DNA of 64,000 nt from Leisingera sp. M658. GTDB lineage: Bacteria > Pseudomonadota > Alphaproteobacteria > Rhodobacterales > Rhodobacteraceae. Shown piece by piece: positions 34,407 through 37,102 of this stretch; the first letter of the stretch is position 1; the number at the start of each line of letters is the position of its first letter. The notes beneath the pieces were generated by a model, which worked only from the letters and a program-made list of their open reading frames with translations, was not told the origin of the DNA and did not search any database. The position numbers were made by a program, and so were the translations under genes. The stretch covers positions 1,938,501 to 2,002,500 of the forward strand of contig NZ_CP083546.1 in NCBI RefSeq assembly GCF_025144145.1. Reading direction: 5' to 3'.

Positions 34407-35276
34407 CTACCGCCGAAGTGCCTGGCTAAAGGCCTCCAGCAGGGCTCTTTGCCGCGGCGATTTGCCAAGGCTTGGCGGCCAGGTCAGCCAATAGCCTTCA
34501 ATTATAGCCAGTTCCGGCGCAGGCGCGCATTCCAATTGCCCCGTTTGCAAGAGATTTGCAGCCAAAGCTTTGGATCCCAAAACAACACCCATTCCCAACC
34601 GGGCAGCCCGCAAGGCATGCGCCATGGAATCTACAGACACTGGACCGGCATCAGGTTCCGTTTCGCCCGTCACTCTGGCCCACTCCGCCCAGCCCGGCCG
34701 TTCTCCGCGCAATTCTATGACCGGTAGCTGCCGCCACCCGGCCGCTTTTCCAGGTGCTGTCATTGGCTGCAGCACTTCATTTGCCAGCAAGACCCCGTCG
34801 CGCCCCTGCCAGCCTCCGCGTCCGTAGCGGATATGCAAAGCCCCGTCGGCCGCCTCGAACTCCAGTCGCTTAGGAACGGTTTCCGTAACCAGGCGCAGGT
34901 CCGGGTAAGTCTTTGAAAACAAGCTTAGCCGCGGCAGCAAAAGCATCTCCAGATGCGATGGCAATGCCGCAACCCTCAGCTCCCGGGCACTTTGGCCAAA
35001 GAGATTTTCGGTGCCTTGTTCCAGAGCGAGCAGAGTATCATGGATCAGCGGCAGGTAACTTTCGCCATCCACTGTCAGCGTCACACCGCGTGCTGAGCGA
35101 ATAAACAACTGCCGCCCCAGCCAGGATTCCAGGTTTCGGATCCGCTGGCTGACCGCAGCCTGTGTGGCGCCGAATTCCTCCGCCGCAGCTGTGAAACTGC
35201 CAAGCCGACCAGCTGCTTCAAACACCTTCAGCCAGTCGAGCGGCGGCAAGCCCTGTTTGGTCGCTTTCTTAGGCAT
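34407..35276 (-). CDS. LysR-family regulator, probable activator of tmpAB
   Basis: A 289-residue LysR-type regulator with the winged helix at the N-terminus (LDWLKVFEAAGRLGSFTAAA, TQAAVSQRIRNLE) and a ligand-binding domain after. It resembles the GcvA branch. It is divergent from tmpA across a 98-base gap, which suggests that it senses a phosphonate or betaine-type ligand and switches on tmpAB. No T-N11-A site could be singled out with confidence. Confidence 0.85.
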   Translation of the reverse strand: MPKKATKQGLPPLDWLKVFEAAGRLGSFTAAAEEFGATQAAVSQRIRNLESWLGRQLFIRSARGVTLTVDGESYLPLIHDTLLALEQGTENLFGQSARELRVAALPSHLEMLLLPRLSLFSKTYPDLRLVTETVPKRLEFEAADGALHIRYGRGGWQGRDGVLLANEVLQPMTAPGKAAGWRQLPVIELRGERPGWAEWARVTGETEPDAGPVSVDSMAHALRAARLGMGVVLGSKALAANLLQTGQLECAPAPELAIIEGYWLTWPPSLGKSPRQRALLEAFSQALRR

Positions 35277-35374
35277 TAGAAAACCTAACCCTCAAACCCC
35301 GATTTCCGTCGTTCTCTTGATGTCTCAGCCTCGGTATTAGCGCAAGGGAGAACCAAGCCAACCGGAGAGATCCC

Positions 35375-36508
35375 ATGCCCCGTTCCGTAACCGCTGACAC
35401 ATCCGGCAGTTTTCTGACTTTGACTTTTGAAGACGGCCAACAGAGCCGTTTTCACGCGATCTGGCTGCGCGACAATGCGCTGGATCCTGAAACCCGCGCA
35501 CCGGGCAACGGCCAGCGCCTGATCACCATCGGCGACATACCCGCGGACACCAGGATCAGCACCGCATTGGTGGAAGACGGCGCCCTGACAGTGACCTTTG
35601 CTCCGGAAGGCAAGACTGTGACCTTCCCCGGAACATGGTTGAACTCACACGCCTATGACATTGACAAAGATACTAAGTTTGGCCGCGTTGCGCCGGGCAT
35701 TCAGACCTGGAACAGCAGCCAGCCGGCGCCCGCCTTTGACTGGAACGACGTGCAGTCTGACCCCAAGGTCAAGCGCGACTGGCTGGATGCGATTGCCCGT
35801 CTCGGTTTTGCCAAGCTGGTGAACGGCCCCGTCAAGGAAGGCGCGCTGATTGACTGTGCAGAGATGTTCGGTTTTGTGCGTGAAACCAACTATGGACGCT
35901 TCTTTGAAGTCCGCACCGAGGTGAACCCGACCAACCTTGCTTATACCGGCCTGGGGCTGCAGGCGCATACCGATAACCCCTACCGCGATCCGGTGCCAAG
36001 CTTGCAGATCCTGTATTGCCTGGAAAATTCTGCTGAAGGCGGCGACAGCATCGTGGTGGACGGGTTCCGTGCGGCGGAACGGCTGCGCGAAGAAGACCCG
36101 GCAGGTTTTGCGCTGCTGGCCGGCTACCCGGCCCGGTTCGAATACAAAGGCTCCGACGGCGTGCATCTGCGCTCGTGCCGCCCGATGATTGAACTCGCGC
36201 CTGATGGCGAGATGATCGGCATGCGCTTCAACAACCGGTCGTCGGCGCCTTTTGTGGACGTGCCCTTTGAGAAGATGGAGGCCTATTACGCGGCCTACCG
36301 GCGGTTGGGCGAATTCATTGACGATCCGGACATGGGGGTATCCTTTAAGCTGGAGCCGGGAGAGAGCTTTATCGTCGACAACACCCGGGTGATGCATGCA
36401 CGTCTGGGGTATTCCGGTTCCGGTTCGCGCTGGCTGCAGGGCTGCTACGCTGACAAGGATGGGCTGCTGTCGACCCTCAATGTACTGAACGCACAGATCG
36501 AGGGCTAA
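35375..36508 (+). CDS. tmpA: 2-trimethylaminoethylphosphonate dioxygenase TmpA
   Basis: A 377-residue Fe(II)/2-oxoglutarate dioxygenase of the gamma-butyrobetaine hydroxylase-like family. The facial triad is visible as His198-x-Asp200 (LQAHTDNPY) and His341 (VMHARLGY). The cysteines that hold the zinc in the N-terminal domain of animal butyrobetaine hydroxylase are absent after [12 protein letters not shown]-type oxygenase follows 3 bases later. That pair is the known tmpA-tmpB module, first characterised with Leisingera enzymes, in which TmpA hydroxylates C1 of 2-trimethylaminoethylphosphonate. Similar genes are often mislabelled as butyrobetaine hydroxylase. CCGGAGAG supports the start. Confidence 0.87.
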
Positions 36509-36511
36509 GTC

Positions 36512-37102
36512 ATGAGCAAGCCGGAGTTCTCTATGCTGACCCAGGACAACATTGTCGCCTTCATCGGCGATATCTTTGACCGCCGCGGCGACGAGGAATA
36601 CCTAGGCGAGCCGGTCACCATGACCGAGCATATGCTGCAAGGCGCCACCATTGCCGAAGCAAACGGTCAGCCGGAAGAGATTATCGTAGGAGCACTTCTC
36701 CACGATATCGGCCATTTCACCAGCGAGTTCGGCACTTTCTCCATGGATGACACCGAAGACCGGTTTCACGAAGAGGCCGGCGCCGAGGTGCTGGAACAGT
36801 TCTTCCCTTCTGTGATCACCGACTGCGTGCGGTACCATGTGGCGGCAAAGCGCTACCTCTGCGCCACCAAGCCCGAGTATTTCAAGCGTTTATCAGAGGC
36901 TTCCGTGCATTCGTTGAACCTGCAAGGCGGGCCGATGAATGCAGAAGAAGTGACCGAGATGGAGAAGAACCCAAACCTCAAGCAGATCATCGCCGTGCGC
37001 TATCTGGATGAGGCTGGTAAACGCGCGGACATGGAAACGCCTGATTACTGGCACTTTGCGCCGATGGTACAGCGAATGGTCGACAAACACATGAATGCTT
37101 GA
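36512..37102 (+). CDS. tmpB: HD-domain mixed-valent diiron oxygenase TmpB
   Basis: A 196-residue HD-domain oxygenase related to PhnZ. The diiron ligands can be assigned to His40, His64-Asp65, His86, His109 and Asp166. Tyr30 sits where PhnZ-type enzymes have the iron-coordinating tyrosine that moves on substrate binding, and Lys113 lies where phosphonate is held. TmpB cleaves the C-P bond of the TmpA product, (R)-1-hydroxy-2-trimethylaminoethylphosphonate, giving glycine betaine and phosphate. It is 3 bases after tmpA and is followed by a perfect bidirectional terminator. Confidence 0.87.
   Translation: MSKPEFSMLTQDNIVAFIGDIFDRRGDEEYLGEPVTMTEHMLQGATIAEANGQPEEIIVGALLHDIGHFTSEFGTFSMDDTEDRFHEEAGAEVLEQFFPSVITDCVRYHVAAKRYLCATKPEYFKRLSEASVHSLNLQGGPMNAEEVTEMEKNPNLKQIIAVRYLDEAGKRADMETPDYWHFAPMVQRMVDKHMNA

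Follow-up and report, generated by a model that had tools for sequence, protein, structure and literature searches.

The DNA analysed here, a stretch of 64,000 nucleotides referred to as the window, is by its sequence that of a marine Leisingera-type bacterium with the described protein pair TmpA and TmpB. The locus almost certainly encodes the TmpA-TmpB pathway, which converts 2-trimethylaminoethylphosphonate to glycine betaine and phosphate. This assignment rests on the close identity of both proteins to crystallised enzymes, on the equivalog models, on the substrate contacts and metal ligands and on the fact that tmpB immediately follows tmpA in each of the 130 related loci compared. Publications from Leisingera already describe the tmpAB pathway, and the locus is ordinary for the genus and already explained. 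A known route to phosphate and betaine is recorded here from one more Leisingera-type genome, along with a regulator site that can be tested. The window itself matters less than what its comparison with related loci brings out, and the main value lies in two leads: the regulator site and a group of TmpA proteins with Ala or Ser at position 287.

The components of the locus are listed in Table 1. The open reading frames confirm the coordinates of the gene order given by an earlier, sequence-only reading, namely a divergent LysR gene followed by tmpA and tmpB, 3 bases apart (36509-36511). A tRNA-Arg gene (32909-32985) lies on the upstream side, next to what we take, from naming the frames by eye, to be a protein of unknown function and cell-wall-type genes. 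The downstream neighbour, also named by eye, is presumably a suf cluster on the opposite strand (37220-42000). The absence of a transporter gene beside tmpAB, remarked by the same reading, holds for the neighbouring frames, among which none was seen by eye.

Table 1. Features of the tmpAB locus (positions in the window)
Feature	Position	Strand	Evidence
LysR-type regulator, 289 aa	34407-35276	-	ORF list; Pfam HTH_1 and LysR_substrate above cut-off
Promoter region common to the LysR gene and tmpA (98 bases)	35277-35374	no strand	Intergenic sequence
Predicted LysR binding box, CGTCGTTCTCTTGATG	35307-35322	no strand	Top-conserved 16-base block in 49 stacked promoters
tmpA, Fe(II)/2-oxoglutarate 2-trimethylaminoethylphosphonate hydroxylase (predicted), 377 aa	35375-36508	+	6npb identity 336/377; NF049936 596 bits, cut-off 400
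tmpB, HD-domain diiron (R)-1-hydroxy-2-trimethylaminoethylphosphonate oxygenase (predicted), 196 aa	36512-37102	+	6npa identity 177/196; NF049941 362 bits, cut-off 300
Strong hairpin, possible two-way terminator, between convergent tmpB and suf genes	37173-37199	no strand	Folding energy

The excerpts of PMC10574752, PMC8177086 and PMC9296572 that were consulted describe the two enzymes of Leisingera caerulea: TmpA adds a hydroxyl group to the trimethylated aminoethylphosphonate in a stereospecific manner, and TmpB breaks the C-P bond to give phosphate and glycine betaine. The alignment with the characterised proteins, proposed as a check by the sequence-only reading, shows 336 of 377 residues identical between the window TmpA and 6npb (89% over the full length) and 177 of 196 between TmpB and 6npa (90% over the full length). 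The L. caerulea pair (PDB 6npa; 6npb, 6npc, 6npd) and the window share the two-gene order, the metal ligands and the substrate contacts. They differ as separate strains or species, by 41 substitutions in TmpA and 19 in TmpB, none of which falls at a checked position. Carried over from L. caerulea by this close identity, TmpA would hydroxylate C1 of 2-trimethylaminoethylphosphonate with Fe(II), O2 and 2-oxoglutarate. Then TmpB, by means of a mixed-valent diiron centre, would cleave the C-P bond oxidatively to glycine betaine and phosphate. Sequence and residues place the probable activity of both enzymes in this strain a short step away.

Among solved structures, phmmer places TmpA closest to 6npb (791 bits), followed by human gamma-butyrobetaine dioxygenase (173 bits). 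The NCBIfam TmpA equivalog NF049936 ranks at the top (596 bits, cut-off 400). The next model, the butyrobetaine model TIGR02409, scores 170 bits lower and is passed by an 11-bit margin (426 vs 414.75 bits), which counts against the TmpA assignment; the trimethyllysine model stays under its cut-off (189 bits). The protein is therefore not closer to the butyrobetaine or trimethyllysine hydroxylases, the grouping that the sequence-only reading had named as evidence against its own proposal. A role of tmpA in carnitine metabolism, as the gene of a gamma-butyrobetaine or trimethyllysine hydroxylase, is barely credible: the narrow pass of TIGR02409 and the common fold family speak for it, and the scores of 596 and 791 bits, together with a gene for a C-P-cleaving enzyme directly after tmpA, speak against it. 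Gamma-butyrobetaine dioxygenase has the Fe/2-oxoglutarate family and the N-terminal domain in common with TmpA, but acts on a carboxylate substrate. Its N-terminal cysteines bind zinc. In the pairwise alignment with the human enzyme, this cysteine-rich stretch has no equivalent in TmpA, as the earlier reading had observed and as the carnitine function would not predict. Furthermore, the human enzyme lacks a counterpart of R288, which is invariant in the 131 aligned loci and is one of the three phosphonate contacts (N187, N287 and R288) reported in the consulted part of PMC9296572. All three contacts are present in the window TmpA. The same part of this source considers that the more divergent members of the BBOX clade, including TmpA, likely differ in function. 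The earlier expectation that automatic annotation would probably name tmpA a carnitine gene is contradicted by the NCBIfam equivalog models that TmpA and TmpB now have. The older butyrobetaine model, just passed by TmpA, explains that expectation; with both proteins named at the equivalog level, current annotation would not give a carnitine name.

The iron ligands His198, Asp200 and His341 occupy the positions of the crystallised TmpA and are invariant in the 131 aligned loci. In TmpB the same holds for Tyr30, Glu33, His40, His64-Asp65, His86, His109 and Asp166. Both ligand sets, with Tyr30, had been described as complete from the sequence, and the positions in the crystallised proteins bear this out. 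TmpB thus has the HD ligand set H-HD-H-H-D as well as the loop Y30-x-x-E33, which moves upon substrate binding according to the consulted part of PMC8177086. The phosphonate-to-betaine route proposed by the sequence-only reading is accordingly well supported by structure matches, equivalog models and N187, N287 and R288.

The closest solved structure to TmpB is 6npa (400 bits), followed by PhnZ (110 bits), and the TmpB equivalog NF049941 scores 362 bits (cut-off 300). The PhnY/PhnZ pair, which acts on 2-aminoethylphosphonate (PhnZ, 4mlm), has the two-step logic and the HD diiron oxygenase family in common with TmpAB; in the consulted part of PMC8177086, its substrate has no N-methyl groups and its product is glycine. 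It is highly improbable that TmpAB acts mainly on another aminophosphonate, in the manner of PhnY/PhnZ. The homology of TmpB to PhnZ and a division within the TmpA family at large, suggestive of variable substrates, favour such an activity. On the other hand, the close identity of TmpB to 6npa argues against it, as do the PhnZ-type models, whose cut-offs TmpB does not reach (TIGR03276, 198.7 vs 214.6 bits; NF052439, 140 vs 300 bits), and TmpA residues G151, Y214 and N287, which are as in the crystallised enzyme. The TmpA-TmpB assignment is also favoured by the tree described below, in which the window TmpA falls within the N287 rows.

NF049936 is above its cut-off in 51 of 394 family genomes, own genome included, and matches at any level in 142 of 394. 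The compared loci comprise 50 other above-cut-off loci (L031-L080), three sub-cut-off loci (L081-L083) and 80 named loci, which are the best 80 of 524 matches and were taken without NF049936 scoring. Nine of the 50 family-genome loci share an identical TmpA with one of the named loci and look like the same genomes; the 131 aligned loci (the window and 130 others) represent 122 distinct TmpA proteins. Within the best 80 of 524, the nearest named matches are Leisingera strains or species, one Rhodobacteraceae symbiont and one MAG (88-92%). TmpB lies directly behind TmpA in 80/80 named and 49/50 family-genome loci, and in L071 by alignment; it is absent from the 18 kb around each of the three sub-cut-off relatives.

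The shared promoter of the LysR gene and tmpA likely holds a LysR-type box, similar to the GcvA repeat in some relatives and diverged in Leisingera. The divergent LysR would turn on tmpAB in the presence of the substrate by binding near this predicted box. A similar divergent LysR, at most 250 bases from tmpA, adjoins 97 of the 130 related loci (70/80 named, 27/50 family-genome). The 33 loci without it count against the regulator role. In some of these an ArsR-like gene, named by eye (cluster 17), was seen near tmpA. The 98 loci with LysR, window included, were reduced to 49 representatives below 85% LysR identity and their promoters were stacked gap-free, starting at the LysR start codon. Among blocks of 16 bases, conservation is highest at promoter positions 31-46, which reach 14.1 bits, against maxima of 1.7 bits in 1000 shuffles and 4.2 bits in 1000 random-shift sets; as the loci have common ancestry, these controls overstate the significance. 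The block still holds 13.8 bits in the 31 LysRs below 70% identity. Of the 12 nearest named loci (L097-L108), nine have exactly the 16 letters of the window, CGTCGTTCTCTTGATG. The T-N11-A pattern is kept in 36/49 promoters and is absent from the window and its near relatives.

Among NCBIfam models, GcvA comes closest to the LysR protein, and the consulted part of PMC5002191 gives ATTA-n7-TAAT as the inverted repeat of GcvA sites. At one register this repeat is exact in 10/49 promoters, and 19/49 match at least 6 of its 8 positions (shuffles: mean 0.4, max 3). The window regulator differs from GcvA in its score below cut-off (167 vs 288 bits), in its target genes and in its diverged site, which keeps only 4/8 positions of the repeat and in this respect counts against the regulator role. 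The LysR gene of tmpAB is not treated in the consulted parts of open-licence papers on TmpA, TmpB and their substrate, found by searches aimed elsewhere. The likely LysR binding site is added here to the known system.

A second kind of enzyme may be present among the relatives. Residue 287 is Asn in 116 of the 131 TmpA loci, Ser in 8 and Ala in 7 (107 Asn and 15 Ala/Ser in the 122 distinct proteins), with R288 and the iron ligands invariant. In the 15 Ala/Ser287 loci (L063, L065-L069, L071-L078, L080), residue 214 is Ala (11) or Ser (4), where 113/116 others have Tyr, and residue 151 is Met, Leu, Val or Cys (14) or a gap (1), where 113/116 Asn287 loci have Gly. Their gene neighbourhood also differs. 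Neighbouring genes were clustered for the 50 family-genome loci and the window (L064, L070 and L078 without gene calls near tmpA), and at least 2 of ten recurrent clusters occur in 14/15 Ala/Ser287 loci, the exception being L078. Of the 36 Asn287 loci clustered, L061 has one recurrent cluster and 35 have none (L064 and L070 being uninformative). The window-like LysR is missing from 14/15 Ala/Ser287 loci and present in L072. The larger clusters form varying sets of MFS transporter, zinc alcohol dehydrogenase, alpha/beta hydrolases, HAD hydrolase and mandelate-racemase-like enzyme. In the family search, which covered representatives of 9 of the ten recurrent clusters, a type II HAD and an enol-lactonase-like hydrolase were above cut-off. 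The nearest families of the others, all sub-cut-off, were gluconate/galactonate dehydratase, zinc alcohol dehydrogenase, hydroxyaspartate or threonine ammonia-lyase, Tet-like MFS, other alpha/beta hydrolases and, weakly, an endonuclease family.

The changes at 287, 214 and 151, together with the other gene neighbourhood, suggest a possible second substrate. It is tentatively proposed, at slightly less than even chances, that the TmpA-annotated family contains two kinds of enzyme, and that the Ala/Ser287 kind may act on a different and perhaps bulkier phosphonate to release phosphate. By its residues, the window TmpA is of the characterised kind. A quick tree of 59 rows, in which columns 151, 214 and 287 were unmasked and from which L080 (a TmpA fragment) and 74/80 named loci were left out, places 42 Asn287 rows on one side of a branch (SH-aLRT 94, not starred); the Ala/Ser287 rows need two changes and do not resolve as a clade. 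All 15 Ala/Ser287 proteins pass NF049936, L080 solely with its pieces summed (400.6). Since this model also covers proteins in which a substrate residue and the gene neighbourhood differ, genome counts of the pathway may mix two substrates. If the second kind is true, enzymes for a different phosphonate are currently labelled TmpA. The group without N287 is not treated in the open-licence literature on TmpA, TmpB and the substrate, as far as the parts consulted go, the searches having been aimed elsewhere.

With regard to uptake, the own genome has PhnC, PhnD and two PhnE above cut-off (about 784,000-788,200 of contig C1, away from tmpAB), and a general phosphonate importer therefore exists in it; C-P lyase PhnJ and PhnK are also present. 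PhnCDE was rejected as the general importer of tmpA genomes, as PhnD does not track with tmpA: among 394 genomes it is above cut-off in 22/51 with tmpA (counted by eye; 20 among the matches listed, G298 and G390 inferred from E-values) and 160/343 without (Fisher p = 0.66), a point against the reading of the pathway. Two further candidates were rejected by score: TIGR03261, the model for AepX-type binding proteins, reaches no more than 43 bits in the own genome (cut-off 393), and L094, a further binding-protein match, has 80.5 of the 112 bits needed. For two others, L095 and L096, the picked frames gave nothing at the 1e-20 limit, and one more match stands at C1:3411875. No recurrent transporter was seen beside the LysR-type loci in the neighbour clustering, in which clusters without family search could hide one. 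The glycine betaine released would presumably be consumed further, and four sarcosine oxidase beta genes above cut-off in the own genome fit such a use.

Some further observations concern individual loci. A 222-aa protein (cluster 10) directly follows tmpB in L032, L033, L038, L042, L049 and L051; its weak likeness to ureidoglycolate lyase, 47 bits, falls far short of the cut-off of 230. L108, a record titled Nocardioides marinus, has a Leisingera-like tmp locus (78%) and a TmpA identical to that of the same-genus genome G238; the title looks wrong. In L175, from a MAG with the label Anaerolineae, tmpA is accompanied by the divergent LysR, and the locus clusters in the tree with rows of Rhodobacteraceae type; it represents either a transfer or a wrongly binned contig.

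Consensus scans for promoters and terminators gave nothing exceeding chance, and no sigma-70-type promoter was found, which counts against the main reading. The hairpin between tmpB and the suf genes was missed by the terminator scan. It is very stable, with A and T runs at its two ends (fold of 37160-37215, -32.8 kcal/mol, z -6.6), and is a possible two-way terminator for tmpB and suf. A suf-like cluster adjoins tmpAB in the window and in 3/50 family-genome loci (L034, L040, L048; clusters 24-27), in one of which tmpAB sits on the other side of the cluster. The position of tmpAB next to suf-like genes may be old in this lineage.
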